A stretch of DNA of 64,000 nucleotides. It comes from Branchiostoma floridae (Eukaryota; Chordata; Leptocardii; Amphioxiformes; Branchiostomatidae). Positions 1 to 57,352 of the stretch are shown here, piece after piece. Made by a program: the position numbers and the translations under genes. Position 1 is the first letter of the stretch, and every line of letters begins with the position of its first letter. The notes beneath the pieces are model-generated. The model was given only the letters and a program-made list of their open reading frames with translations. It was not told the origin of the DNA and did not search any database. The stretch spans positions 15,401,569 to 15,465,568 of the forward strand of contig NC_049986.1 of assembly GCF_000003815.2 (NCBI RefSeq), in the 5' to 3' direction.

Positions 1-3000
1 CTTTACTGGTGGAGGTGAAGATGGTAAGATGTTAACCGATAATTCAAATCGACATACTCTGCAAATGAAGCAATTCATAGTTCACAGCATATCGAAAACA
101 AAGGCCAACCGAGTTGATGGCCTGTGTACTGTTCCTGGGACACTTTCCTATCGCTTTGACTCTGAAGTAGTGTGGAAGTTGGTCTTATTATAACGATGGC
201 GTTTACGAAAGGAACTAATCAATTTAGTATAGGCTAGCTGTTACTTTTCTTTAACTGATCTCAAAATGATTGAAATACAACTTCTCTCCCCAGACGAGCT
301 CTCGAGGTTGTCCACAGACATGCTGCCCCGCAAGGCTACCTTCATCACCCAGCGGTACCGGAGGGGGCACGAGGGGTGCGACAAGTTCTTCCTCTTCTAC
401 TACCCTGTAGCAGACGTCAGCGAACTCAACCTGGTACCTTGTAGTTTCCCTTTCAATCCTTAACAAACCATAAACACACTGCTTTGCTTAAGACATGGCT
501 AATTCTAGGGCATGATCTTATAATGTTGTATTAATGTTGTATCTATGAAGAATTTTGATATTTGTTTATTTGCAAATACACACGCAAGGGCTAATCGCAA
601 GTACATGTAGCATGGAATAATGATAATTGCCGTGATATTAACAGATGATGCCACTATATGCCAAGTTACTAGTTAACAAAAGTTTGAAATATCGACAAAC
701 AGGTCAACTTTCATGCGAATTTAAGCGGACGTTTTTGTCTCGTTTAGAAAAGAGCCCTCCTCCTAAAGCGCTTTGATTACCTGGACACGTACGTCAGATG
801 CTTCACCGGTTACGTCAGTCCTGACGTCACCATGGACCAGGCGCGTTACCTTAGCGACCAGCTCCATGACAACGGGCTGTGTCGTGTGCGGGACAGGGTG
901 ACGGTGGCGGAGTACGACAGCCAATCACGACTGTTCGATCGTCATAACGAAGTAAGTTTAAACTTTATGCCAGAATAAAAGAAAGTAGATATTTACTTTT
1001 AGTGACCTTCGCCCAGAAGGTTATGTTTTTGGTAGCGTTTGTATTTGTGTATGCATGTTTGCACGTATGTGAAATGGACAGCATAACTCGAGAAGGATGG
1101 ATTGTATTGATATTTGGTATGGGGGCAGGTCTTGATGACGCCTTGACATGATTAGATGTTGGGCCACCTAGCGGCTTGTAACGGAATCTCAGCGGAACTC
1201 CCGTTTTATCTCGTGTTCTGGACATGTAATGATGTGAGTTTGGGGATGTAAATATAGCTCTTGAGACAGACCGTGTATGCTGCAGGTTTCTTTGAACTGC
1301 TGGAGCCGGTTTACTTTCAAACTTTGAAAGATAGCAACCCAAGAACGGGCTGGTGATTGATTTTTGTCTGCACATGAGTTTGAAATGTCGGGCAGGTAAT
1401 TAGCATCATCAAGCGACAATGGAAGAAAAAATTATTTATATTTTGCAATTACTTGCTATGGACAAATCTTGTAAAACAAATGTTCTCGAGTCAGTGAAAT
1501 GTTACTTGTATTTATCAATTTCCCTTCGAAGATCTTCTACTAGATCCTTTCTCTGCTATTCGTACTACAGATCCTTTTTGACGCAGCGGATTGCAAGAAG
1601 ACCCAGGAGCGCGCACCGGAGTTTGTCTTCAGTCTGCCTGTCAGGTCAGATGGCGTTAACGTCCATTAGCCGTATCGTCACACTTATTCATTTCATGTCA
1701 ATTANNNNNNNNNNNNNNNNNNNNNNNNNNNNNNNNNNNNNNNNNNNNNNNNNNNNNNNNNNNNNNNNNNNNNNNNNNNNNNNNNNNNNNNNNNNNNNNN
1801 NNNNNNNNNNNNNNNNNNNNNNNNNNNNNNNNNNNNNNNNNNNNNNNNNNNNNNNNNNNNNNNNNNNNNNNNNNNNNNNNNNNNNNNNNNNNNNNNNNNN
1901 NGGGGGGGGGGGGGGGGCTGATCTTATAAATCCCCTTTTCCAGGGCCCAGATTTCTGTCCCGCAAACGGTCGTTGCCATTTGCAACGGTCGATGCCCGTC
2001 AACACGGGGATACGTGCGGGGGGGGGTTTAAAGGATTGGGTTTTGGATTAAACTTTTTGCCCCTGGTTCGGATCCAAAATATTGCCGTTTCATTGATTTC
2101 TTGGCCACGTTTGAAAAGTTGTTTTTCAAACATTATTTCCTCTTGTCAGACACCCCCACCCACCCACACACAGCATTTTGATACGCTCGGATATGACAAC
2201 ACCTGTTGGTCTTGACCGTCTCAAATGGTCTTGACCGTGTCAAATGGCCTTCACCGTTTCAAAGGACTGTTTCCGAGTTGTACGATTCAAAGGGCGCTAT
2301 CAAGAGAGGGTGGCCCAATGTAGAATGCTTATATGTCACATGTCTGTCTGTGCGCCAGTCTCATCTCTTTATCGTCAGCAGACACCAAGAGCAAACAAGG
2401 GGTACAAACAAGAACATGCCGTAAAGGACGAGGCACCGCGAGATCCCTCGAGAAAAGCCGAGATCGTGTACGTCCCGATGCCGCCTAGATGCAAGACGAC
2501 CGAATGCATGCCGATCAGGAAGACCAAGGACTTCGGCGACTTCTGGGAGATAACTGTAACAGATTGTGAGTATACGTCTGACTTTAGTTCTTAACTTGAA
2601 TGAAATAAGACCCGTCATTATGATAACTTCAACCATCCATATTTGCTATGCCCTGTTCATGATGCAAAAATAAATTCAATTCGGCTTAGCAATTAAGTCG
2701 TATTAAGTCGACTTGTTATTTGCGTTCATGATGCAAATTTGCACCGACACATAAACCTCCTCTCTTTTAAGAACACAGATGAACTTCCGAGATAAGGTTG
2801 TACTGTTGTAAGTACTGTTGTTCGATGTGTCGTTCATTTTGTGAATCTTTTCAGACAAGGGTGTGTGCCACTTTGAAGTTGGTTGTGGTGCTCATCACTC
2901 AGGAAGGAAGGTTTTTCGCCCCCTTCTAAAGTACTTCGCCGGAGACAATGTCGAGGGAATTTCCCTTGGCGGTATTACGGCACCTTTGTTCTTCAATGTG

Positions 3001-4157
3001 AGTATGATGTGCATATCTTGTAGTATCTCTTTTGATATGTCTCATTATTCTCCTTATAATGGGCGACAGCTTTGTCTAAAAGCACAGTGCATGGGCATGT
3101 CACACGTATCATTACTCGATAACATCTACAGAAGACAAGCTACGTCGGGCCTTTGTTTTTTCTCATTATACATTTCATAAGGTGTTCTTGCAGCTACCGT
3201 GACCTGATGGCTCCCAGTTTAACAACATTTCGTGGTCATTGGCGATTTTCAGCCGGGAAGGTTCTGATGCTTAGAAATAGATATATCCGGGAAGCTTGTA
3301 GCCTGCCCACAGCTGTTTCCCGGTTGAAAATCGCGACCACCTCCCCCCAGCCGCTTTCGCCAATGCCCATAGATAGGCCAGTGAAGGAGGCTAAGTATAC
3401 TCCTATAGAAGCTAGTTATTCGCAGTCCCAGTGAGTACGTAAGGCTTTCCCAGAGAATAAAACCGCTTTCACATGATCCCCACAATGCACTCATTCTCCA
3501 GTACCAAGGCGTTGTACTGATGGAGTCCGGTGAAGAAGGGAGCTGCAGCTTACCATATGAAGTTTGTCTTCCGCTGCCAAAGGCTTTCCGGCACAGAGAG
3601 AAGATTGCAACTCTGAATAACCACGTGAGTAAATCCAAAACAAACAAACAACCAGACAAACGTGCTTTATCATGCGTAAAAGATTGTGTGACCTTCTTGA
3701 ATTCGTTATGATTTTTTTAATGAAAATAAAAATTTGCAAATACATTTGTGTTGGCATACAGACAAACTTGTATACTCGAGCGGAGGTCAAGGCGTACATC
3801 ACGAGAGTTCACGAGTACCCACTTCTCGCGAGAACGATCCGAGAACACGGGCTGCATCTCATGGGTCGTCTTGACGAGGAAGGAGTCAGATACGACAAGG
3901 TAATACTGCCATCATCACCACTGCCATAGTGTACCCAAGCCATCGTACTACATGTCTCTCTCTACTGTGCTACCGTTATATAATCTGTAATATTTGAATG
4001 AATTTTTATAACAATTACAACTGCATTTATCTACTTATTGTCATCTTTCTAGGAGGCGCTGTTAGCCTTCACATATGACGACTACTTCACACCGCCGAGC
4101 CAGAGAGTCAGCTATGTAGGCTTCGGCAACCCCATCACCGGGAATAAGCAGACTTAA
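1..4157 (+). CDS. Gene A: multi-unit SOUL/HEBP-like protein, 3' part
   Basis: This is the 3' part of a divergent member of the array. Exons seen by GT..AG borders and frame: 1-23 (tail of an exon, tentative), 294-433, 748-951, 1571-1644, 2379-2565, 2855-2997, 3502-3624, 3762-3899 and 4053-4157 (TAA). They match exons 8 to 20 of gene B. The exon at 748-951 ends with SRLFDRHNE, as in unit 2 of B. The exon at 2379 carries the C-x4-C motif (CKTTEC), and those from 2855 encode a SOUL-like unit 4 with LLKYFAGDN and YDDYFTPPSQRVSY. Two things differ from B: the counterparts of exons 9 and 10 are fused into one 204-nt exon, and no acidic last exon exists. Exons 12 to 15 are not visible between 1645 and 2378, where a gap lies. 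The 74-nt exon ends in phase 2 while the exon at 2379 begins in phase 0, so material is missing. Low similarity to B makes the unit assignment an inference. Confidence 0.7.
1705..1901. other. Assembly gap
   Basis: A run of 197 N is followed directly by 16 G. It falls where gene A should carry the exons for its third SOUL-like unit. The flanking 1902-2240 shows only G-rich low-complexity sequence and a CAAATGG/TTGACCGT-type short repeat, with no exon. Confidence 0.98.
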
Positions 4158-4746: not shown

Positions 4747-4752
4747 AATAAA
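4747..4752 (+). terminator. Polyadenylation signal, gene A
   Basis: AATAAA about 590 bases after the TAA of gene A, with a second AATAAA a few bases on and T/G-rich sequence (about 4770-4780) downstream. Confidence 0.5.
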
Positions 4753-7700: not shown

Positions 7701-7989
7701 CGTCATGTCAGATGCCCGGTCACCATACTGTTGATGTTTTCCATCTGTTTTACATTCTACAGTCGTCATTGCTGACAAGATACTTTACTGATTTTTTTTC
7801 TGCGAGGATGTCGTTACTTTACAAATTAGACCAATGTGATCTAGGTCTACGCCTGACACGTGCCTCTCTGACATTTGGTGCCTGGAGAGAAAAGCGTTTG
7901 CTTCCTCTGATAAATGAGTTACCCGTGTGTGCGTAAGGTCATGTTAGGACTGCCCAAAAAAAAACAACGATCGCTGGCCGATCACACCA

Positions 7990-9984: not shown

Positions 9985-10253
9985 ATGAATCCCAGGCTCG
10001 TATGGGCGCTATTTCTCCTGGTGCTTGTGGCGGTGTGTCACGCCGAGCACCCCGGGCACGACAGCGGTGAGCACGACGAGCACGAGCACAGCAAGCACGA
10101 GGACCACGACCACAGCGATCACCACGAGCACGGCAGCTCCCACCAGCACGAAGATGAGCACAGCTCACATGAGCACGAAGAGCACCACGACTCGCACGAG
10201 CACACCTCAAAACAGCACGAAGAGCACGAGCACGGCCCGGACCACGAGCATGG
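9985..10253 (+). other. Signal peptide and His-rich exon of gene B
   Basis: The exon encodes MNPRLVWALFLLVLVAVCHA, then about 70 residues in which roughly one in three is His, alternating with Glu, Asp and Ser (units such as HEHEH, HDHSDHHEH). The DNA is an imperfect CACGAG-type repeat, so length variation between alleles is likely. The equivalent exons of C, D and E have only short His clusters. The ATG at 9985 was chosen over the in-frame ATG at 9955 because the acceptor TATTCCAG ends at 9978. Confidence 0.85.
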
Positions 10254-11469: not shown

Positions 11470-14400
11470 GCTCGCACGCAGACAGGTAACAGCATTTGTT
11501 TTGGAATGAAAGCTCATCTGTGTTGAAAACAAAATAAATCGTTAGGTTCTCATTAGACATAAACTCACAATGTGTCACAGATCTAGATATTTGTTGAAGA
11601 CCATTGTGCCAGGCGGAAAGTGTGACAATAGGCATGTCTGTTTGTATAATGAGATCCCTGAAGACCAATGTTTGTGTTTGAACAGCTTGGTTTATTTTGA
11701 AATGTAATGGACGACTGTTTACGTTGCGCACTGGTACAGATAACGGCCTCACCGGATCAAAGGTGAAGGACGGAGAAAATACATCTACAGTAGGGCTGGG
11801 TATCGGTACAGAAAATTGAGGTCCAGGTCCGGTTCAGGTCCAGAGGATCAGGTCCAGGTCCGGACCTGAACCTGGACCTGATTCAGTATGACTCATACCA
11901 ATGGTCCATTTCACTACAAAGAAATCTGTTTGGTGGAGTATGAGACTTACACTGGCGTTTTAAAATCCTACAACGCTAACTGCACCTGTACGATTGACTG
12001 TAAACCTTGGTAGAAATTACTATAAACTCTACTCTACTTCACTCTTGTTATTTTCTTCCAACTGCAAGCGCCAAAACGTGTGAATGCCTGATAAAATAAT
12101 ATGTTAATTTTCTAATCGGTCCAACATCCGGTCCACCTAATGTTTTCAGGTTCGGTTTTTCTGGACCGGTCCAATAAGAAAAACCGGTTTTGTACCGGTA
12201 CGCTGTACCGATACCCAGCCCTAATGTACATCAATAGTTAGGGACGAACCAAACAGTGAGTATGGGGGGTGCCACGTTGTTGACATTCTTCCTTGGATGG
12301 ATACCAAGCGCAATTGTATATTGCTTTTATTACGTCTTTCTTAAAACATTTTTTTTCTTCAAATATATCCTTTCCATAAGTTCCCGATATGCTTCAGGGC
12401 TTAATGTGTTTTGCAAATCCTCCTCAAATAAGATATCTTCTTGGTTCAGAAATATAATCCTCTTGCAAAAAAAGTTTACGCTTCACTGGTAAGACGGAAA
12501 TGAGTAGTGCCAAGTCATCATTTACAATAATTGTGAACTGTTAGTTCCTTCGCCGATCTCTAAATTTTCTTGTTTGTTATTTTCTATTCTCAGTGACAGC
12601 CATGAACGTCATGGTTCCCACGAAAGTGAGCTGAAAGAGTTCTGTCGTGGAGAGTGCCCTGAGTACGAGGTGCTGTGCCACAACCATGAATACGATGTGA
12701 GACGGTACAAAAGCGCCCTCTGGATCTCCACCACGGTATCGGACCCGTCTCTGTACCAGGGTCACGTACGCGGCTGGAACCGCCTGCACAAGTATATCAG
12801 AGGAGGGAACAAGGAAGGTACGTAAAATGTTAACGTTATGGTATCGCACTAACGCTAAAAAACGTTGCGAATTTCCCCTGTACTTTTGACATGAGGGTAT
12901 ATGATATAGCACTATACATATATGATGTCGTATTTCTTGGCGACACCACAGGGGTGGAGCTAATATATTCCTGTGATCGATATGAAAATGGTTCAAATTT
13001 CCTTGCATGCTTTTACTGTGAGGGGATAATACTGTTTTAGGCACAGGCCATATACTAAAAGATCGATAATTAGGACACAGCAAATTGCACATTCGAACCA
13101 TGTTGAATGCTACATGGTTGTTTTGTAACATTTCCAGGAGTGAAGATGCCGTACACCGCACCCCTGGTGACACAAACCCGGGAACCCCAGGAGAGCCCCT
13201 TCCACGAGGTCACCGTGTCCATGCCGCTTCCCAAGGACATGGCTAAGAACCCTCCCACACCGATCGACCCTCATGTATGTTAACCGTAATTCTTATCTTC
13301 ATGAAGTATCTATTTTCACTAGCGTTTGTCTGCTGGCCATGGATGGATTGGTTTCATACTCGATGTGTTGGTAGGGTGTGGCAAAATTGGTTAGATTTTG
13401 CCCCCCCCCCCGCCCCTGGCGGCTTCGCTTGGTACTGCAACGGAACTTCCAATTTTGATATCTCGCTATATATTTTGGTGATAGAAATCTCTTGACGTAA
13501 ATTTAGACACCCTAGCGGCTAGTTTTGTAATTGCAGGAGCTTTTCTGTAAAAATGTCCGTAGAGGATAATTGAAGAAAAGTTTGATTTTTGGGTTTATAA
13601 GTAGCTTAGACAAAGATATAAAAAAAATGAAATAAAAATTATGCAACTATGCAAAATAGGAGGACAGTTTTTCAATGTCCTGGGCATGATATGATGTTGA
13701 CATTTGGTTCAGAGCTATAAAGATAGTTTTTGACGTCAGCACAAGGTGGCGCAGGTTTGAGCCCCCTTACATTTACTTTTTGAACTGCACGGGCATTTTA
13801 TGAAAACATTCCAATGAGGATAACTGAAGAAAGGAACGATAGATTCCAAAATTTTAAGCATACAGGTAGCTTATGCAAAGATGTATACATGAAATGCATA
13901 TTATGCAAATGAGGACTTAATTTGTTCCAGGTGGTGATTGATCTCGTACCCGAGTCTATCGTGTACGTGAAGAAGTACCGAGGCCGTGCCGCCCGTGTCG
14001 GGTTTGTGGCAGAGCGGGAGGCCAAGAAGTTTTTCACCACCCTGGAGCACCACCATGAACCCTTCCATGGCAAGAACGACTATTTCTACATCGCTCAATA
14101 CGACAGGTAAGCATTTTGTTACTCTGTGACGGAGGGTAACCTCCGACGACAGAGTATTGTTGTTGTCCGGTGTGATGAGTGTTCGCATCAGTATCTCTAT
14201 AATATGTTCACGTTGCAGCATTCGTATGTAGCTTGGCATCTCGCCTGCACGCACGTTTTTTTTTCTATAGCTGTTTTTATCATCGATGTAACATTTTCAG
14301 AAGTCACCCCTATATTCCTGGTATTGTAGAACAGGCCATGTGGTTTGGGGCTTTGGTAATTAGCTTATCTCCAAGCAGATATGGGGTTATGTGTTCTCTA

Positions 14401-17400
14401 ACGTAGAGAACAGCTGTCGCGGCAGAGGAATCCCTAAACAGATGTTAGACTCTGGCTTTCTAGCACATTGCATTGGTCAGTGCCAGTGTTACGCCGATGG
14501 GCGGTTATACCGGCTATATAGATACAAATACAGATAGTTCTATTTTTCTGGTCTCACTACAGCAGTCGTGCTGGATCTTCTGACCCGAAAATGTACAACG
14601 AGATTTGGGTTTTCGCCATGAACGAGAGGACGTTCAAGTGGCTAGAGTTCAACGACCTCAACGGCCACGGAGAGGGACTGCCCCACTGCCTCCATCACGA
14701 CAACAGAGTCGGTTCGTGGCACAAGATGAACCAGGAGGACATCCCTGTAGAGGCCCTGGCCAGGAGGCAGTGCTCTGAGACGTTCTGTGAAGGTACGACA
14801 GCCAATATTTGCCTGAAAAGGTAGAATATATAGTTTCCAGATGTGTTGTTCCTTCACCACCGCATCTACGTATATCTCTTTCAGCACCGAAGAAGTGTCC
14901 CAAGTATTCGGCAAAGGCGGTGAAAGAGGTGGACGACGAGACCATCCAAATTAGAGAGGAGAAGGACCTGAAGGCTGTCGGTGTCGTCCCTCTCACCTGT
15001 AACTTCGACACGGCCATGCACTCGTCTACAGGACCCCTGATGCAGTATTTGAACGAAACAGGTGACGGAAACTTTATATTTATCATGGAAATCGTGTTTT
15101 TTGTACGTCAAGTGCCAATGTTGGTCTGATCTGAAGAGGTTATCAGGACATTTTGATGATGACTAAACTGGTGAGTCAAAGCTGCCCGGAAGTCTGCACT
15201 TACACTAGAATTGCCAAGTACTTCTAGTAAATCATTGTATTTTCCCCCTCTTTATAGGAGTGCCTTTGTCAGACGTCGCGGCTACTATGACTGCTGTCGT
15301 AGAGAAGCGAGATGATGAGGATGGAAAGGAGGGCTGTGGAAAATTCTACAAAGTCTACTTCGGCATGGGCGGCGGAAGTGGCAAACCGGAAGATGTAGGT
15401 TTATCTTTCTAATGCGTGACTCAGTATGCGACTCTTCTACTGCTGTATCCGTCTTCATGTCGAGATAGAAAATGTGGAATTCATAATGTTTTATTTTGAC
15501 TATTACCCAGGACTACACCCTGTCTTTGAATGAAGACCTCTTCAAGGCACCGAAGACCATTAAGGTGTTGCACGATGGGAACGCTGCCGGAGGGAAGTAA
15601 GTTGATGACTATTTTTTACGTTCAGAGCCTCGGAGCTGGTAAGTCAGAACGTGTGTACATGTATGGATATGATGAATAATGATAACCAAAGCAAAGGAGC
15701 TTTCATTTTGATGTTGGACGTTACATTTATAATAACAATAGACACACACACACACAGCACTTTTTATCGCCACACAGTAACTTCTACACCAAGTGTTTTG
15801 GTGGCAACGCCTACTACGAACCAACCACTGTCACTACAACGTCGAAGATGACCATGGACAAGTTGAGGGATGCAAAGAAGTGCATGCTGGAAGACCACTT
15901 CACTGTGATCGAGTACCACTCGCAGTCCAGGCTGTTCGACAGGTTTAATGAGGTACATGAGCCATCGTTTTTTATCGATCATCACATATGGTGACTTGGG
16001 AGTTTTCGTATTTTTAATCCACAAAAATGGTGGACCATATTACGTAACTCTCACAAGACTGCAAATACCATATCAGGAATTAGTTCGAAGTTTGTTCGCG
16101 ACAACTTTGGATGAAGGCTTGACAGGGTGTAACGTTACGATGGATGCTCTTTGCTGCTGCTTTGTTCCCAGATCAACATCGATGCCGATCTGGACTGCAG
16201 TGACCAGGAGGGCCGTCCGGAGTTCACCTTCCACCTCCCACTGAGTAAGGGCTACCACCGGGACGAGGCGAAGCCGGTGTTCGGGGACCGCTGCACCACG
16301 TACGAGTGCCCCAACATGTCCATCGCCGTGAGATTTGAGAACAACCTCAGGCTGATGAAACATCCAGCAGGTAACATCAACCCATTGCACCAGTAAATCG
16401 TCTCGGGCGCGTATATTATAACGAGCTAGTGAGTGCTGGTTGCATGAAAGCACAGAAAGAATTGCAAAAAAAAAGCTACGATTGAATTTTGAATTGGGGA
16501 TAAAGCTGGATCCAGAAATTTTCTAATGCTCTTTCTGATTCTACTGTTTCGAGATACATGTAGATCACATGCAACCCCGGTGTAGGTTCACGGTGGCCGG
16601 GTGGTATTTTGCTTCGGCGGCATTACCGGGGAAGGGGACGATGCTGAGCTTGTACTGAATCTTTACAGCATTTTCAACCTTCTTTTTCGCTTGTTCCACA
16701 GGAAAGTGGATCTGCTCCAACAGCACAGGAGTGTCTTGTTCGTACGCACAGGCCTGGGAGAAGGCACTCCAGCCCATCTTGTCATACATCAACGGTAAGA
16801 ACGAGGACAACGTGAGGATGGACATGACGAGACCTCTGTATGGACAGGTGTGGGGCTTTTTCTTACCTTTTAGCAGCGGTAAATTGTTGTTACCACACCC
16901 GTGTCGAAAAAATCGACTGAGAAACATTATGAACATGTACAGATTCCCCCAAAGGAGCTGCTGGTCACTTCTACTGTCCTACTGTCATCTGGTTTTAGAT
17001 AACCAGGACTGTTGTACTTGTAATCATTGAATTGTGCAACAACAACTTTAAATGACGTTTATATAGTTATAATACTGTAATCATTATGGTGTTCCACATT
17101 CTTCCTCTTGATTGTACCTTTGTCACATTTCGTTGTGATACGTAAGTTATGCAAGTGTAGGAATTGCTTTGTACATCTTTAGAAATGAGCCTTCAGTGCT
17201 GAGCATGCTGTGGTGTCTTTGGTACAGTCTGGACAATTTTACTTGCAATGCAATGTAACGTAAACATGCTGCTTGTTTTCTCTTATGGCCAGGGACATAC
17301 AGGAGAGAAGGGAAACGAGTGTGTGAAGACGTTCACGTTGTGCATGTACCTACCAGTAGAACATACAGAGAACCCACCAAAGCCCATCGATGACCATGTA

Positions 17401-40400: not shown

Positions 40401-43400
40401 ACACAAAACTTAGAGATGTACGCTCTTTGCCTAAGACATTCATTAAGCTAAGCGTCAAATCTCTGGTTGCTCAGTTCTCTGGATGGAAGGTTGTTTCCAA
40501 CTTTCAAGGCTGACACCATCTTATCTCGTTCTAGGAGTTCCACACTCTGAAGTCGCCTTGATGAGCTTCAGCGCGGTTGAGATTCGAGACGAGTTGGACG
40601 GGAAGGAGGGCTGCCAGAAGTTCTATGACATAACTGTCATACGGGGCGGGGCGAGTGGGACTAAAGTCCAGGTGAGTGAAGATGCAGTTTATATACACCT
40701 TCTATTTACAAGCCAATCTGGTCAGCTTTACAATCATTAAATTTTTAACTAAGCTTTCACTTTATCACGCTATCTTTAAGAAACAATCGTTTTTAGCACA
40801 ATTTTGCACCTTCGTTATTGGCGACACAGTATTACATTTACAAATGTCTGGAAGAACAGTGATTGTGTGACGACCTTTGTTTTTCTCTACCCTTTGTTCT
40901 GCAGGACTTTTTCCATGAACTTACCCCGGATACTGCCGATAGGCATGGGTTAAGGAGTCCAAAGACGAAAGAAGCATATCATCATCGGAAAAACTACCAG
41001 ACTCAGTGAGAGACCACTATGATATAGTAAATTGTACCAAATATATAAGAAATTCTCGTCGTCCTTAGATCTTCTAGAATTGTCTGTAAAATAAAGTATT
41101 AACCCGTTTCGCTAAATTTAGCTCAGATGAAACTTTCGTGGTCATATTCGTAGGACGTCGGGCGATTACGATATCGTCGAATTTTGCTGAGCAGGCTGTG
41201 ACCAAACCAGCCGCCGACAGCCTTTTCTGTTAGTTAAGATACGGTCACACATTCGTATATATTCAAGTCCGTTTGAGGTGCGTATGCACGCGTATGAAGC
41301 TCTTAGTCTCTACCAGGCTCCACAGGTCGCGGGGAAAATAGTACAAATTGGACAAATATAGATGAATAACATGCCAGATGAGTTAGCTGACCGAGAAGTA
41401 TGGTTAGCGACCCAGCTAACTCGTCTGATATGTTACCTGTTTACGTTTGTCCAATTTCTTTTATTTTTCCAACGACCTGTGGGGCCTGGTGGAGGTAAAT
41501 ACTCCCATGCGCGCCTCATACGGACTTAAATATATACGCAGTTGTGCCCCCACCTTGACTTGCTATGGCTCAGAACGCCTTTACTTGGCGGTCATACGGC
41601 GACCGTAATACGATCGTACGGCGAATGTGTCCAGACCTTTTTTTACCTCCATGAAAAATGGAGGTATAGTTTTGAGTGTGTCTGTCTGTCTGTCTGTGTG
41701 TGTGTGTGTTTGTGTTTCTATTATGTCATTTGCATAATCAGAATATTTCATGGAGGTATGAGGTCTCCGAACTCTTGTTTTTTCTATTTTGCTTTCGGAC
41801 TGACGGGGACAATGTGGCACTGCACTCAAGTTTTTGTAACTTATATTAACAGTGCCACATACACGGTACAGACAGAAGGTAAAGGTAGTCTTTTGCCTTC
41901 CCGACCGAAGTCAGGTACCCATATTTACACCAGGGTGAAGTGAGGAAGGTCGTGTAAAGTGCCTTTCCCAAGGGCACAACGTCGGAACGGGGCACGGTGG
42001 GGATCGAACTCAGAACCTCTAGGTTTCGAGCCAAACGCTTTACCAGTTACACCACGCCCGACCTTTTAGCTAAGGGCAGAACCCGCCGTACGTGCAAATA
42101 CGTGCTGTCTACGTTCCAAAACGTGGGCAATCTTTTGGGATCTGTAAGTGGTAAGTACCGCCTCCGTACGTACTTTGTGTGCACCTTGCGCAACCGTGCG
42201 AGTGACGTGCGTTGACGTACTCATTGCCAGTCGCTGCTCTTGCCAGTCGTTCCCCACGTTTTCAGAAATACGTGGCGGACGTGGCCTCCCCAAAACCGTA
42301 CGGACAAATCGCATGTACGGCGGGTTGTGCCCTTAGCTTAATTGAAGGGAATAGACGGTCAATTCTCAAAATCCTTTGCGGTTTTTATGCTAAACGGATT
42401 TCTGTCATATTCTTATCTCTATGTTGGCATACAAGTAGATTATGTTCCAAGATACAAAGATGTTAGTACAGTAGCTTACTTGAAATCATGCTATTTACTG
42501 CGCGTCTCGCAAAAAAGGCATGAAACAAAACAGTTGGTGGAACCAACATTTCACCATTTCACAACGAAATGGAAAACTGGATGGAACGAAAGGAATAGCC
42601 AAAAGCGGCCATTTGCTATAATATGCATTACCATTTTATGCACCACAGTCACTTCTATCACAAGTGCATGGGTGGGAACATCTACTACGAACCAGTCACC
42701 ACCACTAAAGTAGCCAACGTACTCACGGACAGGCTCAAAGAGGAGAAGAAGTGTATTCTGGGAGATCACATAGGGGTGTTCGAACATCATCCACAGTCCA
42801 GGCTGTTTGACCGTTTCAATGAGGTACGATTGTTATCTGTTTCCATTTGTCTTTTTGCCTGTTTATCTATTCTGAATAGCAGTCAGTGACAATCCGACGA
42901 GACCCTAGATAAAGTCAATGGCATCTCTATTTCAGACGGATAGCTTTTATTTCCTTAATTTGCGTCATCAACACAAGTTTTATTAACTACAATTCAAAGT
43001 TAAACTTTTACATCCATATGGTACACTCAAAGGTATTGGCTCATTAGTTGAGATAAAAGACAACTTTGAATCCCCTTTGAGAAAAAAAGTAAGGAAGAGT
43101 GAAAAAGAGAGTGATTAAGAGAAATAACAGGAAAAGCAAAACTATGGCCATTCCAGTTAATATGCACATACTCTGAATCAAATAAAAATCAAATCGAATC
43201 AAACTTTATTTAATCAACTTGGCAGTCATGATCAATCAGACTGAATTGCGTCGAGTGTACAAGGAAATTATAGGAATGAAGCGTATGTTTTTTCAGGTTA
43301 TTCTAGATGCCGACCTGGACTGCAGTGACCAGGAGGGCCGTCCGGAGTTCACCTTCCATCTCCCGCTGAGTAAGAGCTACAGCCAGCACGAGGCGAAGCC

Positions 43401-43764
43401 AGTGGTCGGGGACCGCTGCACCACGTACGAGTGTCCCAACATGTCCGTCGCCGTGAGGTTTGAGAACAACCTCAGGCTGATGAAAACCCCAGCAGGTAAC
43501 CTTGAGGATGATGCTGTGATAATGGAAGAGTCTAGCCCATCTGCCGACACAATGTCTCTATAAGAACTACTACCAGCGGTTTAAATCTGTCAGGGACCAA
43601 TGTATATGTAGTGTCTGACTATTCTGTGAAAAAAACACAAGTTTCAAATATAAACATGTGGCGTCGCCTAGCGTAACACCTCGAGCACGTAAAAGAGCCC
43701 ACCACACTTATCGAAAAGAATCCTTCCAAGTGTGATATATATACTCTATCTATCTATCTATCTA

Positions 43765-43834
<70 letters not shown>

Positions 43835-46800
43835 CTGTGCTGTTCAGTAGAAACCTGGTGTCTTAGGCCATAAACTATGTGATACACACGAACCTTATGA
43901 GATTTGCACGAACCTTATGCGAAATTGAGGCAGTGGTAGCGTCTGTCACGTGACCACTGCCGGGGTCACGTGACAGACGGAGCGGGATTTTCAAGATGGC
44001 GACTTCGATCTTCGGCGACGGAAAATACGATGTAACACGCCGAAATGAAGCAAAACAGTAGCTCACAGGCTATCGAATACGTCTTCGTGATGGTATATGT
44101 CCATTCCATGCATTTAAATATAGATATCACGGGTAGAGACGCTCAAAATCATTCCTTCTCCCCGGCCGCCGTTTTGCATAAGGTTCGTGCAAATGTCATA
44201 AGGTTCGTGTGTATCACATAGTGATTCGTGCGAACTTCATAATATTCGTGCGTTTTCGCATAGTGATTCATGCGATTTTCATAATATTCGTGCGTTTTCG
44301 CATAGTGATTCGTGCGTATCACATAATATTCATACGAATTTCATAGGGTTCGTGCAAATGCTTAGGCACCCCTGATAAAGCGCTTTAACAGGTATGCAAT
44401 ACCAACCGACAAATACACCAGTTAAAATCTGCCTCACCAGTCATCATGGACACGCTAGGCACATTGATATGGCATTAACGTTAGTCTGTTAAGATGGCCT
44501 ATTACCTCCCAGACTTTTGTTGTTCCACAGCCACATGGCTTTGCTCCAATAGCACAGGCAAGTTTTGCACACACAAACAGGCCTGGGAGAAGGCACTCCA
44601 GTCCATTCTGTCTTACATCAATGGCAAGAACGAGGACAACGTGAGGATGGACATAACCAGACCACTGTATTATCAGGTCAGCTAATTTTTGTTGTCTGAA
44701 ACAGAGAATCAGCTGGGATGCACTACATACTTGGTTGCAACTGGTGTTTTATGATTTAATGTTCAAGCTAACCTTCATTGTGTGACAATGGGATTGTTTC
44801 AACAGTTTGTAACAGGCGAGTAGAAACAGTCTCCTGGCTCCCGGGATTTAAACCCGCGCCGAACTCGTTTCAGGGTCAGACCTGTTTCGCATGGTCAGTT
44901 TGGCGGCGTTTGAACCTAACTGGTATAAGTTGATGCTGTATAACATTGTAAGTAAATCACATTTGTTTCCATTGTTAAGGCATTTAGATGTTTCTTTACT
45001 CAGGGTTTCAGAGGAGACCATGAGTGTGATACAGGAATTACGATGTGCATTACACTGCCAAAGAAGTATGAGGACAACCCACCAAAGCCCATCGATGATA
45101 TGGTATGTATTGAGATATCTATTTCATGATTGTTGCGTATTTTTCTTTACTTAGGCCACTAGTGGATGTGTGCTTATATTTTCCTTTAAGACTGATGTCA
45201 TAGCCATCAGTACCAGTACAATTGTTTGCGATAATGTCAGATAGACTCCTACAAATTATGCTTAATGTTGTCAAACTTGGCAGCTCAGACTAGCAGTTTT
45301 CAGGAGGTTCATTGACAAGACCTATTCCGAAGTGCAATAAAATCACCTGACGTATAACGTTTCACAAACCTATTGGTTAGCTCAAAACATTACATACTAT
45401 CAATATATCAGATCTTTCAGAAACTACATACTTATACACCTATTAGACGATTAGATGATCTTTCCATACTCTTGTTTATATTTTCCAGGTTTCCTTCAGA
45501 AGGGGAGATAAGGATAGTTACTGGTATGAGACGGCATTTGTGGGCAAGCCTACCTTAGACGTGCTCACGAAACAGATGACTCGGATGACCAAGCAACTTG
45601 AAGAACTTAAAACGTTTGGGGTAAACTATACGACAGAGGTATGCAGCCATGCTTTCATCTTTCATATATACCATTACGTCGACTATATATATAGGGACAA
45701 AAAAGTGCCCATAATGAGTACAAGTATTCCAAGTTCAAAGATTTTAGACGATCTTCGTATTTCATACTATCTATATTTTTCTTGTTTTAGGACATTTGGG
45801 CTGGGGGCTATGGCTTTGTTAACGACGAGGAAGCTCTTATGACAGTGATAATCGTAGACCAGCAGGTATGTCTGATTGATAGTCACCCAATCGATCATTT
45901 CATCAATCAATCAATGAATTACATTTCGTATTCCAGCAGTATTTAATGTTCAAAAGGCAATTAGATATAGATATGTTATTTACTTGAGACAAATGCAAAA
46001 GGATTATTCACAAAAAAAAAACTTGTATTTCTTTTTTTCAGCACATCTACTGGAAGGTGAGTGCCTGTTTCTTATAACTGTTTCATAACGTTTTATAATG
46101 TTTGCTCCTGCGATTCACACTGTAGATACACTGTGCCAAAATGAATTAGAACGATTATTTCTTTGTTTTAATTCAAACCTGAAACAGGACAGTGAGAAGG
46201 TAGAAGATGCCGAGAATGACAAGACGGAGGAGGAACACCCAGATGAAGAGATCCTGGACCTGATACCAAAGGATTGCCATCTGCCTACCTGTAACCCCGT
46301 CCAAGTGACCAAAGAACACAGCAACTACATGGAAATCTTCTTCCCCACATGTGGGCATTTACATACTATCTATTCTCTGTTTCCCTCCACCACCATCCTT
46401 GTTATTTGCTCAAATTTATTTCTTTCTGCTTTTCGACCTCCTTGTAGTTTTGTTCCATGAGAACAAGTACAGCTCATTTTGCTGAACGAACTAAAGCCAG
46501 CAATTATCAACGAAGGAACTGAAGATAGTGATTAGTCTTTCATTTGAGTTGTCTTCACTAACTTGGGAGTAACGTTTAGCATGACTTGACTTGATTCATG
46601 ACGTGTATGAGATCATGAGACATTTTTGAGAGGACTTTAAAGTCGTATCACGGCTTTCTTTGAGCCTCATTACCTATGCCCTGTGTTGCACAGCGAAGGG
46701 TGTCTGCCAGTACGTCAAAGGATGCGGCCACGGCTCTCCTCGCCGGAGTCTATTCCTCCCCATCTACAAGTATTTCGACGGAGACAATGAAGAGAAGGAG

Positions 46801-49071
46801 AAGATTGGGAATGTCACGGATCCAATTGTTTTTCAGGTAGTTTCCAGATATAAAAAATGAAACTTGTGTTGTATAAAATTGTTTACATTTTGAGCAGTTT
46901 TGTAGCTATCTACGCTGTGGTTTATTTGCTCCCTAGGTATTTGAAAAAGGGCCAATGAGTGGCGGAATTCTCATATCTATGCATGAGTATAGTTGATGCA
47001 ATGCGGAAGTGGTGCGCTTGCATATCACTCTTTTTGTTTTTGTTGACTCAAGGTAAAGCTCTACTCAGCCGAGGAGGAACTGGCCGGTGTTGAGGCATGT
47101 GAGCGAGAGTTCCAACTCTGTGCCTATCTGCCTTCCTCCTACGCGGAAAAGGACATCCCCAAACCAACAGGAGAGAACGTAAGACATCATTTGATGCAAT
47201 GATAGATATAGATTATACCATTATGATCTCTTTCTAGCTAACACTATACTTTCTGCAATCTTTGACAATACACACCAACGTTAGATTTAATGTAAAGGGC
47301 TGTTATGGAATTTTTTTTATAAATACCTTGTATGCAATCCGTATCTTGGTTCAATCTGCACACGAAACCCTGCATTAAATCCCTATTTACATGATTTCAG
47401 TATTGTTTTAGTCAATGATAGCTTTATTGCACAGCAATTGTACGGGGTACAAAGTATGGCATCTACATAACTACAGTTCTATAACTTAACGCTTATCTAA
47501 CTAATACAGAAGTTGTAGTATGGGATAAGTTTCTTACAGTCATTGGAGGCTTTTACAATCATTGAATTAAAACAATCATTTACAAATGTATGGGACTCAA
47601 CAAGTTCAAATGAAACGGAAGAAGATATTTTTATATCAAAACAGTATCCCTACTGTGGGACTGCACACCGTTTGCATACAATCTGCATATTGGTTGAGAC
47701 ATTTATGCCACCTTTCAAAACACAGATGGCTACATTTAATGCCAAGGATGGAGCTCACGGGTACGCCATCGGTGTGAATGGTTCTTTCAACAGTATCGAC
47801 ATTCCTGCCACAACCATCAAGCTGATACAGGCGCTGAACGCAGAGAAGGTCAAGCACAGCCAGGTACAAATTTTAAACTGACCAGTTAACGTTTTATTCA
47901 CTGTCAAAGGCGGGTAATCAATCTATCTATTGGGCACATCCCACATAGTGTAATAGAAACGTAACAGATGCATATCTGTATACTTACATACGTAAAGCAA
48001 TTAAATGTGTTCTTGACATCTAAATGTAGAAGTCTCTACCAACAAGGATGTTTGTTCCAATGCACATACTTTTCATACTAATTAACGTACACATGCACTG
48101 ATTGGTTACCGCTGAAACTGTTCATTTACCCAACTGTACATCTACCACCCATATGTATGTTTCCCCTACTACCACTTTATGTTTCTCCTACTGTATGTTT
48201 CCCCTACTACGTATACCTCTGAATGTTTCCCCTACTGTATGTATCCCCTACTACCTCTGTATGTTTCCCCTGCTGTATGTTTCCCCTACTACCTCTGTAT
48301 GTTCCCCCTACTGTATGTTTCCCCTACTACCTCTGTATGTTCCCCCTACTGTATGTTTCCCCTACTACCTCTGTATGTTCCCTCTACTGTATGTTTCCCC
48401 TACTACCTTTGTATGTTTCCCCTACTGTATGTTTCCCTTACTACCTCTGTATGTTTCCCCTACTGTGTATTTCTCCTAACACCTCTGTCCTCTGTATGTT
48501 GACACATCAGGACTGGCTGCTGATATTCGCGCACACCAACGAGTTCACCAAAGTCGAGCAGGACAAGATGGTTTACTTCGCCCTCCTGAAGGATCAGGAG
48601 ATGTCGGATGGAGGTATATTAAGAAACTTTAAAAGTGTTCCATAAACTTTCAAATTTCCAAATTATCTTATTTGTTTTGATTTCATTAATTGACTTGGTT
48701 GAAGAATTCTAAAGTCAAACGAAAAAAAAAAAAAACACAGCACAATCCTGCTCCTTATTGTGAAACTTGGAGCACCAGTCCTGTCATGTAATAAAGCATG
48801 GTTTATATATAATTGGGACAAAGCGAAAATTACCACATAATGACAATCATTCACTTTGCCTCCATTCGGACTGCCCTCTGGGCCCGTATATTGGTATTTG
48901 TAGCCAGACAGGTGCAGCAAGTACTCTAGCCCAAGGTATGCAAAGGTTAGATTCTAAAAGACAAGGTAAATCTACATAGTGTCTACAGGTGCCCATGCAT
49001 ACATGTATGCTGTTCCACTTATGCGTGAATGTGTCTGTCATCTTACAGTGCAGCCCTCTGATGGCGAGTAG
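37422..49071 (+). CDS. Gene D: secreted four-unit SOUL/HEBP-like protein
   Basis: Twenty-one coding exons: 37422-37516, 37731-37933, 38177-38313, 38735-38910, 39229-39449, 39812-39988, 40535-40671, 40905-41005, 42649-42823, 43297-43495, 44531-44676, 45004-45102, 45489-45638, 45791-45865, 46042-46056, 46188-46350, 46694-46836, 47053-47178, 47726-47863, 48511-48613, 49049-49071. The phases agree, for 2802 nt and 933 residues. Signal peptide MAYKVLLATFLVCVGVCYG is followed by RHHHKQPQ. Unit 1 carries YDVRRYRSALW, KMPSTGPL, PPIPNDP, VYVKKFRG and NEIWIF. Unit 2 keeps CMGGNIYYEP and SRLFDRFNE; units 3 and 4 follow as in gene B. Differences from B: one 90-nt exon is split into 75 + 15 nt, and the protein ends VQPSDGE without the acidic tail. 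Secretion and ligand binding are inferred from sequence and family. Confidence 0.86.
41254..41538. mobile_element. Large imperfect palindrome (foldback element)
   Basis: Arms 41254-41388 and 41414-41538 are imperfect reverse complements over about 125-135 bases, with matched blocks CGTATATATT, CCACAGGTCG, AATTGGACAAA and GAGTTAGCT. The loop is only 25 bases. It lies in the large intron of gene D between the exons at 40905 and 42649. A further pair (GTCACACATTCG near 41244, GAATGTGTCC near 41622) may mark the ends of a bigger element. Confidence 0.7.
41876..42064 (-). mobile_element. tRNA-derived SINE, antisense copy
   Basis: On the minus strand it has an A-box region (GCGTGGTGTAACTGGTAAAG) and a B box (GAGTTCGATCC), followed by the same body as the SINE at 54745-54986: GTTGTGCCCTTGGGA and CACGACCTTCCTCACTTCAC. 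It lies in an intron of gene D. Confidence 0.75.
43746..43832. repeat. (TATC)n(TA)n microsatellite
   Basis: About six TATC units lead into about 32 TA units in an intron of gene D. Confidence 0.95.
43850..44372. mobile_element. Foldback MITE with 45-bp inverted repeats
   Basis: 43877-43921 and 44177-44221 are near-perfect reverse complements, each holding two copies of CGAACCTTATG or its complement. Outer sequence GGTGTCTTAGG (left) and CTTAGGCACC (right) suggests the ends. The right part has tandem CATAATATTCGTGCG/TTTTCGCATAGTGATTC units. GTCACGTGAC palindromes occur inside. Limits are approximate. Confidence 0.65.
46042..46056 (+). other. 15-nt microexon of gene D
   Basis: CTTTTTTTCAG|15 nt|GTGAGT encodes HIYWK. 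In B (18345-18434) and C (31682-31771) the same residues end a single 90-nt exon. The 75-nt exon at 45791-45865 plus this microexon restores those 90 nt. Confidence 0.8.
48153..48480. repeat. Minisatellite, about 38-bp period
   Basis: Alternating TGTATGTTTCCCCTAC and TACCTCTG blocks repeat about eight times, ending about 30 bases before the acceptor of the exon at 48511. The repeat is pyrimidine-rich on the sense strand. It makes long but meaningless open frames rich in Pro, Tyr and Cys. Confidence 0.9.
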
Positions 49072-49419: not shown

Positions 49420-49425
49420 AATAAA
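49420..49425 (+). terminator. Polyadenylation signal, gene D
   Basis: AATAAA about 350 bases after the TAG of gene D. Confidence 0.45.
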
Positions 49426-52239: not shown

Positions 52240-52245
52240 GTAACA

Positions 52246-55200
52246 ATGGCGTCCAAAGTCCTGTTGGCAACATTCGTTCTGGTCTACGTGGGAGTGTGCC
52301 AAGGTCATTTCCACCACTGGCATCTACTGGGCGATTCAACCAGGTACACACTACACACCATACTTAGAATTTTCTAGATTAAATCAGGTATGCTCGAAAA
52401 TGATGCCAAGCTCCCCTGGGTGCCATCCGATTTCCAACGGGGCTCCAAGACTTGCTTTCCTTAAAACACATCATCGCCAAATCTAAATTTTCTGCAATAG
52501 TCTAAGAACCAAGACCTCAGTTGTTTTCCAACAACAGTGTTGTGTATAAACTAAAATCGGATTTTTTTACATAGTTCACAACACACCTATTCTCTCCATG
52601 ACAACAGCGTAGCCCCGGAAACCGTCTGTACTGGAGAGTGCGCTGAGTTCGAGCTGTTGTGCTCGACCCCAGAGTACGACGTGCGGCGGTACAAGAGCGC
52701 CCTCTGGGTGTCCACCACCATGTCGGACCTGTCCCTCTCCCAGGCCAGCGCCAGGGGGCGGAAACGCTTACACGACTACTTCAGGGGTGCAAATGGCAAA
52801 CGTGAGTTTCACGCAGTCAGTGCCAACACATCATTTCACGTCACAAAACGATATGAACAATAAATTGCAGACCTTTTTGAAGATGAACAGATGACTTATG
52901 TCGCTACACATATCTAGTGGGGCCATCTATATGATGCAGCCAGCTTGAATGGATGAGTTTTAGTCACTGTGAAAATGTCTACTGGACAATGTCATAATCT
53001 CAATACTCAACTAGAGTTCGGGGACCACATACCTCCATGAAATATTTATTGCTTTTTTGTGGATGGTATGTATGTTTATGGTCGGTTGTATTTGAGAGTA
53101 ATGGTTATAAATGTTATGGGAAAGAAGTGGTGTATTCATTTAATGACACAGAGAATGTCCATCTGATAAGTAATTATTAAAATGTGACACTTAATTGTGT
53201 AATGTGCGTTTAAGAGGTCGACGGCATATGGTAGCGTGGTGTTCCTGAAGCGTGATGTTTGGCATTTAAACTGTCTAAGGTTGTCAGCATTATGAGGTTA
53301 TACTATGTGCCTCAGAGCGGTGTGGTGGGAGGAAGTTGGGAAAGTTAGAAAGAAGAAGGGATTTGGCAAACTTTAGTCCGAGATCTTTACGTCTTACCTG
53401 CAGAAGTATGCAATTTATAGAAATTAATAGTTGATTAGCATTTATAATGACGATCTCCTACTATTACAATGTGTTCCACAATAGGACCTTGATAAATGTA
53501 AGATATGTTTAGCTGCTGGCTACAACTGTTAGCTGCTGGCTACATGGCCCACGGGTGATTAATTACCTGACCTACATACGTCACCTTGCCCCGGGACATG
53601 CCTGTTCCAATATTTCGCAGATATAGGGGTGATTTCTGATATTATTACATTGATTATAATGACAGATACGGCGCCCAAAATCTCATCGATTCGAGCTTTC
53701 ATCACACCCCACCAACACAACAAGTATGAAACCAATCCATCCAGCCGTTCTTGAGTAATCATCTACACAGACAGAGACACATAACAGAAAATATAACCTC
53801 CATTCCATGACATTTCATGGAGGTAATTAGTATAATACCATCCTGACAGAGCATCTCAGTTAGAATGACATGAAAGAAAAACGCTTTGCTGTTAGGTTCT
53901 TTGTATTCCTGCAGGTGTGATGAGCTATTTCAATATTTTTTCTGAGGAGTACATTAACGATGGGCTTTTTTTCAGGACTGAAAATGTCGTACACCGCACC
54001 CATGGTGACACAGACCCGGGTAGCATCTGAGAGTCCCGTCCGTGAAATCACCGTGTCTGTGCCTCTTCCCGAGAGGGTGGCAAAGAACCCTCCTAAGCCA
54101 ACAGATCCCAGGGTATGTTTCAAGTTTCTCTCAAAGATGGAATTTATTCCTACCATAGGGCTTGTTGTGCTTCGACAGCAATCAATTATCAAATTTGGCC
54201 TATTTCCTTGCCTGCATGAGTGTCGCTATCTTTTCTACTCTCAAAGCAATCTTGTATTTACCTATCTTAGCATTATGAGGATCTTAAGGTATAGTCAAAT
54301 CTACTTCTGGTATCGAGTATCGTAACATCTGTAGTGCTTAAACGTAGGAATGTGAATAACTTATTGCGCAACATATCATACATAGGATACTTCATGACGA
54401 AATGAAATTCATTTTCAATTTGCTTTGGACATAATGGGCAGAACCTACTGTTTCTCAACTGTGTTATGACATGTGCAGGTGGTGATAGATCTCGTCCCAG
54501 AGGCCATCATGTACGTGAAGAAGTTCGAAGGACGTTCTGCGAGGGTCGGCTTTGTCGCTGACCTGGAGGCCAAAAACTTCTTCAAGACCCTGAAGGCGAA
54601 TGATGAACCATTACATGACAACGAAGGCTATTACTACGTCGCGCAGTATAGCAGGTATGATGCCATATACAGCATGTCAATGTAACGTTAGCACTCACAA
54701 GAACTGGTCATGGTACCACAACGCCCTTTATTAAACCACGTAAATGGCGTCGCGTGCGGCGTAACTGGTAGAGCGTTCGACTCGGAATCTAGAGGTCCCG
54801 AGTTCGATACCCGCTGTGCCCCCGGCGTTGTGCCCTTGGGATGGTCACTTTACACGACCTTCCTCACTTCACCCATGTGTAAAAACGTTCCGTACTACGT
54901 ATGTGGCATAAAGCTGCCTGTACTTCTTCTGTTATTTCTGTTTATTTGAAATGCAATAAATATTAAAAAAAAAAAAAAAAAAAAAAGCTAGCGACATGCA
55001 GGAAATCTAAAACAGTAGCAGTCTGTACATAAAGTTGGATGATGCTTCAAAACAACGGTCGTGTTCATGGAAGGCGACAGCTTATGTTGCGAGATGCTCC
55101 ATTGGGTGCTGCACCGTTGCACTTAACGGCCAACGCATTCACGATCAATTTGAGAGATCTCATAGTCAGCACTGTGTGATTGCTTCAACGATAAGTGAGG

Positions 55201-57352
55201 AATAGTAAATATATGAAAGCTGCAAAAAAAAAAAAAAAAAAAAAAAAAGCTGCCTGTACATATGTAAATTTCTTTACGTTTTGTGGCCACATCTACACTG
55301 TGAGCAGCGGCACCTGTCCTGTAGTCAGAATTGCCCTGAAGAAGGTGACAGACAGTCACCAAAACGTCGGTGAGAATAAAACATTGGTTGTGTAAAAAGA
55401 CTCTCTTTATTCAGTGAAGTACCAACCTGATGAAACAAGTCACGAATGTTTGTGACACTGTTAATATGAGTCTCTAACTTGTGTGCAGTTCCACATTGTC
55501 TTCGTCTGTCCAAAAGCAAATAGAAAAGAGAGTGAATAGTTTCCTCGGGTTGAATGTTCTTTATTCAATAATAGATAACGACGTTGTTGACTATACAAAT
55601 CTGCTCCGTTCCATGATAGGGCTATTCAAACATGTGACATATAGAACTGAAAATAAGAAGAACATTAATAATCAAAATTTTGCAAGACTCTACTTTTGCC
55701 CATTTTTCTCCTTTTTTCCTCAATTTGCAATGCAGCTCGGAAAAGTCCAGTGCGCCCATCCGCACAGAGATTGCAATTTTTGCCCTGAACGAGAAGACAC
55801 ACAAGTGGCTGGAGTTCAACGACAGACAGGGACTCCCGAAGTGTATCCGTGGTAAGGGGGAGCACATGACGTGGGAGAAGATGGGCCAGAGCGACATCCC
55901 GCTGGCGTTGTCAACTCGCGAGCAGTGCTCTACGACGTACTGCCAAGGTATGATTGGATATACCTGCTCTTGTTGCTGTCTATGACATAGGCAATATAGC
56001 CAAACCCTCGAAAATGAAAGAAGAACTATTATCGAAAATCGAACCTTTTCAACTCTTGAAAACTGTGTCACTGAGTTCAGTACCATGTCCTGACTGACAG
56101 TAGTGGCTGTGGTGGCAGTGTTATCAGTAGTACTAGCAATATCAGTAGTAGTAGTGTTGGTAGTAGTAGTAGTAGTAGTAGTAATAGTAGTAAACCCTCG
56201 GTAACCGCTATGCAGGCAATGACTGTCTTTCCCAATAAATGGAATGAATCTTTCGTGAATTTTACACGTCCTATCGTTGTTTTAGCCCCCAAGAAGTGTC
56301 CAAAGGTCGAGACAAAGAGTGTGGAGGGTATTGACGACAAGAGCATACAGCTGAAGCACATGAAGGATATCAAGGCATGGGCGTACGTACCACCAACCTG
56401 CTACTACGATACAGCCTTTCCAGCTTCTACGGGTCCACTGCGGGAGTCTCTAAACACATCAGGTAAGATTCTAACACCTGAGAGATATGTTTGTACAGAA
56501 AACAAGTCAATATATGTTATCTGTGTTGTAACGTCATGTTACATGGAATGTTATTTTATTGAGGGAACAACTTTACATGAAGTTCCTGGCATCGGTTGAA
56601 TATAATGGATTCGTATCAAGATTTTGATCAAACATGATCATAAAGATTGCTTCCTATCAGGCTGCAAATGAGTTAATGTTTTGACAATCTACGACTGAAA
56701 TTTAATACTTGATTGTGTATTTGCCTACAGGTGTCACTCTTTCGGAAGCTGCCATGACGATCACAGTTGCCATGGAGAAAAGGGAGGAGTTGGATGGGAA
56801 GAACAGCTGTCAGAAGTTCTTCAAAGTGTTGCTTGCTACAGGTGGTGGAAAAGGGGGCCTAGAGGTACGTTATGACAGAAAGGTCTTGGCAGGAATTGTT
56901 TTAAGAAAAGAAGTAAATAAGGATAATTATTAAAATAGAATTTATCTCTTATTGTTGCACAGGACGTACAGATGAAGGAGGAGGCTGGCTTGCAGATGCC
57001 AAAGACTGCAGAAGCAATACATCAGGGGCATGCGACTATTGCAGGGTAAATCAAATGCTGTGCTGCAATGGTTGCATTTCAATTACTCCAAGTAGACATT
57101 CCCTTATGTATCAATCCGCTATTTCTTACCATCAAAACTATACCAAATTATGTTCATTATTTATTTTCATCACATATTAGACACTACTCCAAGTGTTTCG
57201 GCGGCAATGCCTACTACGAACCGATCATCATCACTTCCACGGCTAAGCTCCTCATGGAACAGCTTAAGGACAAGAAGAAGTGTTTCCTGGGTGACCACAT
57301 CAGTGTGCTCGAATACCATCCGCAGTCCAGGCTGTTTGACCGTCACAACGAG
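52246..57352 (+). CDS. Gene E: secreted multi-unit SOUL/HEBP-like protein, 5' part
   Basis: Nine coding exons are visible: 52246-52343, 52608-52801, 53976-54112, 54479-54654, 55736-55947, 56286-56462, 56731-56864, 56963-57045, 57181-57352. The phases agree throughout. The signal peptide MASKVLLATFVLVYVGVCQG is close to that of D and is followed by HFHHWH. Unit 1 has CTGEC, YDVRRYKSALW, KMSYTAPM, PPKPTDP and MYVKKFEG; the Y-N-E-I-W stretch is replaced by IRTEIAIF. Unit 2 ends CFGGNAYYEP to SRLFDRHNE. By analogy, units 3 and 4 (about 12 exons) should follow. The donor GTTTGT at 57353 opens an intron that holds an antisense BEL/Pao element, so the rest probably lies beyond the window. Whether the gene is still spliced across the insertion cannot be seen. 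Confidence 0.82.
53031..53824. mobile_element. DNA-transposon-like element with short inverted repeats
   Basis: ACCTCCATGAAAT at 53031-53043 and ATTTCATGGAGGT at 53812-53824 are exact reverse complements 794 bases apart, in an intron of gene E. The motif recurs at about 41646-41760 and 22063, so this is a local repeat family. No transposase frame was seen. Confidence 0.6.
54273..54458 (-). mobile_element. LINE coding fragment, antisense
   Basis: The minus-strand frame encodes RFCPLCPKQIENEFHF then a YPMYDMLRNKLF stretch. This is the same C-x2-C..H pattern as the LINE fragment at 24985, with the last Cys replaced. It lies in an intron of gene E, 20 bases before the exon at 54479. Confidence 0.6.
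54745..54986 (+). mobile_element. tRNA-derived SINE with poly(A) tail
   Basis: A tRNA-like head has an A-box region (GCGTAACTGGTAGAGCG) and a B box at about 54794-54812 (GAGTTCGATACC). The body is shared with the antisense copy at 41876-42064. It ends in an A run at 54965-54986. Amphioxus SINEs of this type are known in general, but the family name cannot be assigned here. Confidence 0.8.
55224..55248. repeat. Poly(A) tract
   Basis: A run of 25 A is followed by AGCTGCCTGTAC, which also occurs at about 54911 in the SINE tail. It may be the remnant of a second retroposed copy. Confidence 0.6.
56157..56190. repeat. (TAG)n microsatellite
   Basis: About ten GTA/TAG units in an intron of gene E, with scattered related units upstream from 56100. 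Confidence 0.9.

Follow-up and report, generated by a model that had tools for sequence, protein, structure and literature searches.

What do the exon-sized direct repeats encode that recur every ~12-16 kb along a 64,000-nucleotide stretch of the genome of the lancelet Branchiostoma floridae (C8:15401569-15465568, hereafter the window)? An earlier note, made from the sequence alone, had read them as a tandem array of at least five genes for secreted proteins with four SOUL/HEBP-like units. The observation was confirmed and the interpretation was partly supported. Our own answer, tentative and put at somewhat less than an even chance, is that they form a lancelet gene array whose secreted four-unit SOUL/HEBP proteins would act as extracellular multi-site binders of tetrapyrroles or metals. 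Coordinates are given in window numbering, and gene parts beyond the window are numbered on the same scale.

Five head-to-tail + strand copies with a shared exon plan were recovered in the window from the repeats, from matches between the translated exons of different copies (E-values down to 6e-54) and from spliced alignments. The count of at least five held, and the full array is larger. It comprises eight genes (A-H), arranged head to tail on the + strand over ~113 kb. Gene A begins ~2.9 kb before the window, gene E ends past it, and F, G and H run on to ~109650. The minus strand carries a ninth gene, I, 3.5 Mb from the array (C8:19,000,926-18,988,178); it has four units and a signal exon of its own. 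A + strand scan with unit profiles found no more units from -19,998 up to A, nor after H to 123,900. None of 10 other open reading frames of the window that were scanned matched a Pfam family at E 0.1, and Rfam gave no match. Chance repeats were ruled out by the exon-sized spacing, the translated matches between copies and the profile matches compared with controls.

Gene B was described by a single model of 20 exons, in phase and open, coding for 1062 residues on the + strand. Its 18 core exons (12594-20752) were placed by eye at AG/GT borders and join in one frame with no stop. Exon 0 (9985..10253) encodes a signal peptide (MNPRLVWALFLLVLVAVCHA), followed by a stretch of 70 residues with 25 His and 24 Asp/Glu. 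This His-rich stretch is encoded by short tandem repeats and was absent from the account in the earlier note. Exons 1-4 (12594..14792) carry SOUL unit 1 and a linker with three conserved Cys, and exons 5-8 (14885..15952) a diverged SOUL-like unit 2, whose last strand continues into exon 9. Unit 3 is found on exons 9-13 (16172..18434), and an acidic linker plus unit 4 on exons 14-18 (18783..20752). Exon 19 (21299..21492) adds an acidic tail, Asp/Glu making up 36 of the final 70 residues, and ends with the stop codon at 21490-21492. Against Pfam SOUL (PF04832; cut-off 27 bits), units 1, 3 and 4 of B gave E-values of 8.8e-35, 5.3e-15 and 3.3e-15, and unit 2 gave 3e-4 (21.3 bits). Full-length B matched SOUL in four stretches (each with an E-value of up to 1; 4.9e-70 and 235.5 bits overall) and no other family.

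The other seven loci were aligned with a purpose-written protein-to-DNA spliced aligner, which returned the exons of B except for one base at each end. C, D and F-I share the exon plan of B, and so does E, where its recovery took two steps. C has all 18 core exons; in D, F, G and H some of the small exons are less certain. No in-frame stop interrupted the spliced models of B-D and F-I (863-908 residues) or the 724 residues modelled for E, whose last exons were located separately. Since the aligner penalises stops, their absence is weak evidence for very small exons. Amino-acid identity among B-H was 36-82%.

Are the units really SOUL domains? A Pfam search of units 1, 3 and 4 had been set beforehand as the test that could overturn the assignment, and it left the assignment standing. 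We scanned 26 unit sequences from genes B-I: unit 1 of B, D, F, H and I, unit 2 of all eight, unit 3 of B and D-I, and unit 4 of B, D and F-I. All 18 sequences of units 1, 3 and 4 were above the cut-off (5/5, 7/7 and 6/6, respectively). Unit 2 was above it in one of eight copies (H, 1.2e-9, 38.9 bits) and below it in four: G (3.4e-5), B, F (0.004) and E (0.006), with 17.0-24.4 bits. The matches of G, F and E cover only the C-terminal part of the unit. Searched against PDB, the profiles of unit 1 (4 copies), unit 3 (7 copies) and unit 4 (6 copies) retrieved HEBP2 at 7e-20, HEBP2 at 5e-13 and HEBP1 at 0.002, respectively. When the unit profiles were compared with each other, the E-values were 2.4e-12 for units 1 and 3, 4.3e-10 for 3 and 4, 1.5e-4 for 1 and 4, and 5.3e-4 for 2 and 3; none of 12 controls, reversed or column-shuffled, scored better than 0.011. 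By these matches units 1, 3 and 4 are plainly SOUL, and unit 2 is best read as a badly diverged SOUL. The claim of four SOUL-like units thus stood for three of them and, by the Pfam cut-off, for unit 2 in one of eight copies only. Unit 3 of gene I also had a DUF4279 match below the cut-off (7.5e-4, 20.2 bits).

Introns lie between the exons of each unit, and the units could in principle be separate single-domain SOUL genes that were wrongly joined. The borders between the units argue otherwise. In B, exon 9 is open throughout and runs from the last strand of unit 2 through a linker into unit 3, of which it encodes the start. Exon 4 leads from unit 1 into its linker, exon 14 joins the acidic linker to unit 4, and the phases fit across the borders. 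The linker Cys 221, 249, 254 and 456 were present in all eight genes B-I. Because exon 9 and the conserved Cys cross the unit borders, a single polypeptide is indicated. An unrooted tree was built from 41 sequences, and a single branch set each of the units apart (support 100/100, 100/100, 100/99 and 100/100). As the units each group by themselves, the four-unit layout is older than the gene copies. Units 3 and 4 are joined in this tree, but the program warned of a possible long-branch effect there, and we drew no conclusion from it. A separate gene for each unit was rejected from exon 9, the phases and the linker Cys, and we regard it as hardly credible. The four-unit architecture is, as far as gene models can tell, close to certain.

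Secretion is predicted for most of the genes. Signal-peptide exons with a fitting donor phase were found before B, D, E, F, G and I (6 of 9 genes), called by a simple hydrophobicity and cleavage rule and not by SignalP. The signal peptides that had been proposed for B, D and E agree with this rule. The Cys pairs of the units point the same way. Cys 518/579 of unit 3 (counted from exon 1) are both present in B, C, D and H, and both missing in E, F, G and I. The matching pair of unit 4 (Cys 739/805) is missing, again as a pair, only in H, among the seven genes with sequence at that place. The joint loss of both partners suggests disulfides, which we take as independent support for secretion, with the caveat that the unit 3 sequences of E, F, G and I are closely related, so that their loss is possibly one event. 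The proteins are thus probably disulfide-stabilised. The same four-cysteine pattern was seen by eye in two unit-3-like units of a companion SOUL cluster on the same contig, described below.

Have the copies been maintained? Ratios of nonsynonymous to synonymous divergence (dN/dS) were computed by the Nei-Gojobori method for five pairs. For whole models they were 0.31 (B-C), 0.34 (B-D), 0.48 (E-F), 0.48 (F-G) and 0.53 (E-G). The values for single units were 0.22-0.59, two comparisons of 26 codons without amino-acid change being set aside. Such ratios are the signature of purifying selection, as read from the sequences. The contrary view, that many of the copies are decaying pseudogenes of one functional gene, can point to the fragmentary gene A, to a stop in the signal exon of C and to some small exons and last exons that were hard to define. 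The stop-free models of eight genes and the dN/dS of 0.31-0.53 in the five tested pairs speak against it, and we consider it improbable.

The copies may also have exchanged sequence, as judged from uneven divergence. Between F and G the synonymous divergence (dS) was 0.93 in unit 3 but ~0.2 in each of the other units, pointing to gene conversion or a mosaic copy; unit 3 of G is located at about 90151-91451, beyond the window. The exon of D at 43297-43495 had 84% protein identity to the exon of B, compared with 55% overall. Together with unit 3 of G, this mosaic similarity suggests gene conversion among the copies. The array is best described, from its sequences, as a product of tandem duplication with divergence, including some mosaic copies.

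A tandem array with this spread of identities among B-H and with mosaic copies could also belong to proteins of another kind. The units might no longer bind small molecules at all, and serve in protein or glycan recognition (mucus, egg coat, immunity), diversified by tandem duplication and gene conversion. The loss of the HEBP2 His (see below) and the bad divergence of unit 2 would fit such a role. On the other side, dN/dS was <1 in every unit comparison made, so that no diversifying selection is visible at this resolution, and Pfam recognised nothing but SOUL in full-length B. We rate this explanation as unlikely.

How do the proteins relate to known SOUL proteins? Mammalian HEBP2 has one domain, is about 200 residues long and is not known to carry a signal peptide. 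HEBP2/SOUL of mammals (PDB 3r8j, 4ayz, 5gqq) resembles units 1 and 3 over much of the domain, with the E-values given above. The array protein differs from HEBP2 proper in its four units within one polypeptide, its signal exons and, in unit 1, an Arg in place of His42. HEBP1/p22HBP (PDB 2hva, 2gov, 7oon) resembles unit 1 (3e-11) and unit 3 (2e-8) as well as unit 4. An Arg of unit 4, kept in the seven genes with sequence there, aligns with the Arg of REAMPKIMKY in HEBP1. Arg56 and Lys177, considered as heme contacts of HEBP1, were found neither in PMC6739868 nor in the literature search and played no part in the comparison. Unlike the four-unit array protein, HEBP1 is a single domain. The earlier note had described a large multi-unit, extracellular protein, unusual beside the short, single-domain HEBP1 and HEBP2 of animals; for the mammalian proteins, the length of B and the signal exons bear this out. 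By sequence, the parts of the array protein belong to the SOUL/HEBP family, but the protein departs from HEBP2 proper in its number of domains, its predicted signal peptide and the residue at the His42 position.

The available part of one paper calls HEBP1 cytosolic (PMC6321638). Mouse HEBP1 is presented as intracellular and delivered in extracellular vesicles in the available part of another, where the term signal peptide is not used (PMC10266087). Vesicle delivery is a different route from the one implied by the signal exons of the array. In a sea anemone, HEBP2 expression is mentioned (PMC9444052), and a Nematostella gene with one SOUL entry is listed (PMC4877951), as far as the available parts of these two sources go. 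Within the open-access titles and abstract openings searched, no multi-unit or signal-peptide-secreted animal SOUL protein was named.

Single-unit SOUL genes occur in the same genome (C12:21,210,000-21,233,500, minus strand; loci L025-L027). The three modelled group with human HEBP2 in the tree (support 95/95). One unit was found per gene, and the simple rule gave no convincing signal exon. The companion SOUL cluster mentioned above (C8:18,927,000-18,985,000; loci L017-L022) contains unit-1-like and unit-3/4-like units, and signal-like exons at 18928242, 18946568 and 18953842. The sequences closest to unit 1 in the tree are four units of this cluster (support 94/82). The cluster perhaps holds more secreted multi-unit genes, with other unit numbers.

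What, then, could the proteins bind? The earlier note had suggested a possible role in scavenging heme, porphyrin or metals. If the array encodes an extracellular multi-site binder, the protein would leave the cell and work outside it. Heme or another tetrapyrrole would sit in the ligand groove of the SOUL fold; in a filter feeder, chlorophyll derivatives from the diet are one example. In B the His-rich start, and in both B and C the acidic tail, may add metal binding, and the copies may differ in ligand or in the place of expression.

Several observations weigh against this reading. Mouse SOUL is stated to bind heme via His42 in the available part of PMC6321638. In unit 1 an invariant Arg (R21, within RRY in B-H) is aligned with His42 of HEBP2, the His of 'IRHY' being taken as His42 from a reading of the chain offset. 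The heme ligand of SOUL is thus not transferable to unit 1. The functions of HEBP1 and SOUL are now placed beyond heme metabolism, perhaps with little connection to heme, according to the part of PMC7700505 available. Unit 2 of C, D and I (3 of 8 copies) had no Pfam SOUL match, the unit 2 profile retrieved no HEBP chain from PDB, and its comparisons with unit 1 (0.009) and unit 4 (0.17) were not convincing, lying near the controls; unit 2 may therefore bind nothing. The signal-exon candidates of A and H are doubtful, and the counterpart in C is interrupted by a stop. The dN/dS near 0.5 in E-G indicates only moderate constraint. As to the ends of the proteins, B alone showed a strongly His-rich segment, and among B-H an acidic tail was found in B and C only, the stretch searched in D-H being 4.5 kb past the last exon.

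The ends also bear on a different explanation, in which the SOUL units are a mere scaffold and the protein chelates metals or calcium outside the cell by means of its His-rich and acidic segments, in nutritional immunity or mineral handling. Gene B, with its His-rich and acidic start behind the signal peptide, its acidic linker before unit 4 and its acidic tail, invites this view. The acidic tail of C and short His runs after the signal peptide in D, E and I are in line with it. The strong His-rich stretch was, however, found in B only and is encoded by short tandem repeats, the acidic tail was not found for D-H within the distance searched, and the conserved part of the proteins is the units, not the ends. 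We therefore hold a pure chelator to be rather unlikely.

The extracellular multi-site binder, which we prefer, might also take a more specific form. At a helix position of unit 1 there is a His in 7 of 8 aligned genes, with Tyr in H and Val in A; HEBP2 has Asn there (LNSY) and HEBP1 Met (IMKY). This helix His would be a candidate axial ligand of unit 1's own, and the ~nine genes would encode a secreted protein with several pockets that carries or detoxifies tetrapyrroles, an innovation of cephalochordates. This bolder version is doubtful at present.

The remaining copies in the window, all on the + strand, are as follows. Gene A is represented by its 3' part (787..4124). The unit-profile scan found the end of unit 2 (787-960) and pieces of unit 4 (2490-2558, 2851-3006 and 4059-4124), and the spliced model is fragmentary. 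Unit 1 of A lies upstream of the window, from about -2917. Unit 3 gave no signal in the unit-profile scan, and an assembly gap (1705-1901) falls in that stretch. In gene C, the homologue of the signal exon (24253..24372) has an in-frame stop after three codons. The core of C (25792..33589) consists of 18 exons covering units 1-4, with 899 residues without a stop and 82% identity to B, and its acidic tail exon is located at 35600..35791 (start approximate). The core is thus open and constrained despite the stopped signal exon, for which another start, a polymorphism or a recent loss may account.

Gene D has a signal-peptide exon at 37422..37516 and units 1-4 at 37729..48615, the last exon being 48511-48615. 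Its last intron contains a minisatellite (48154-48488) with 8.7 copies of 38-bp units. Gene E has a signal-peptide exon at 52246..52343 and units 1-2 at 52573..57352. Beyond an 8.8 kb intron, the exons of its units 3-4 were located at 66114-70183, outside the window; a long intron thus leaves the window, and a truncated E was ruled out. The last part of the window (57353-64000) is the first 6.6 kb of this intron, with a strong C/T skew from 60 kb. Six open reading frames scanned there had no Pfam match.

The cellular role of SOUL is still called poorly understood in the available part of PMC6321638. An extracellular four-unit form in ~nine lancelet genes would be a natural experiment on this family. 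Its units could be separated for tetrapyrrole binding, and copies with and without the Cys pair, the His position or the His-rich end could be compared.

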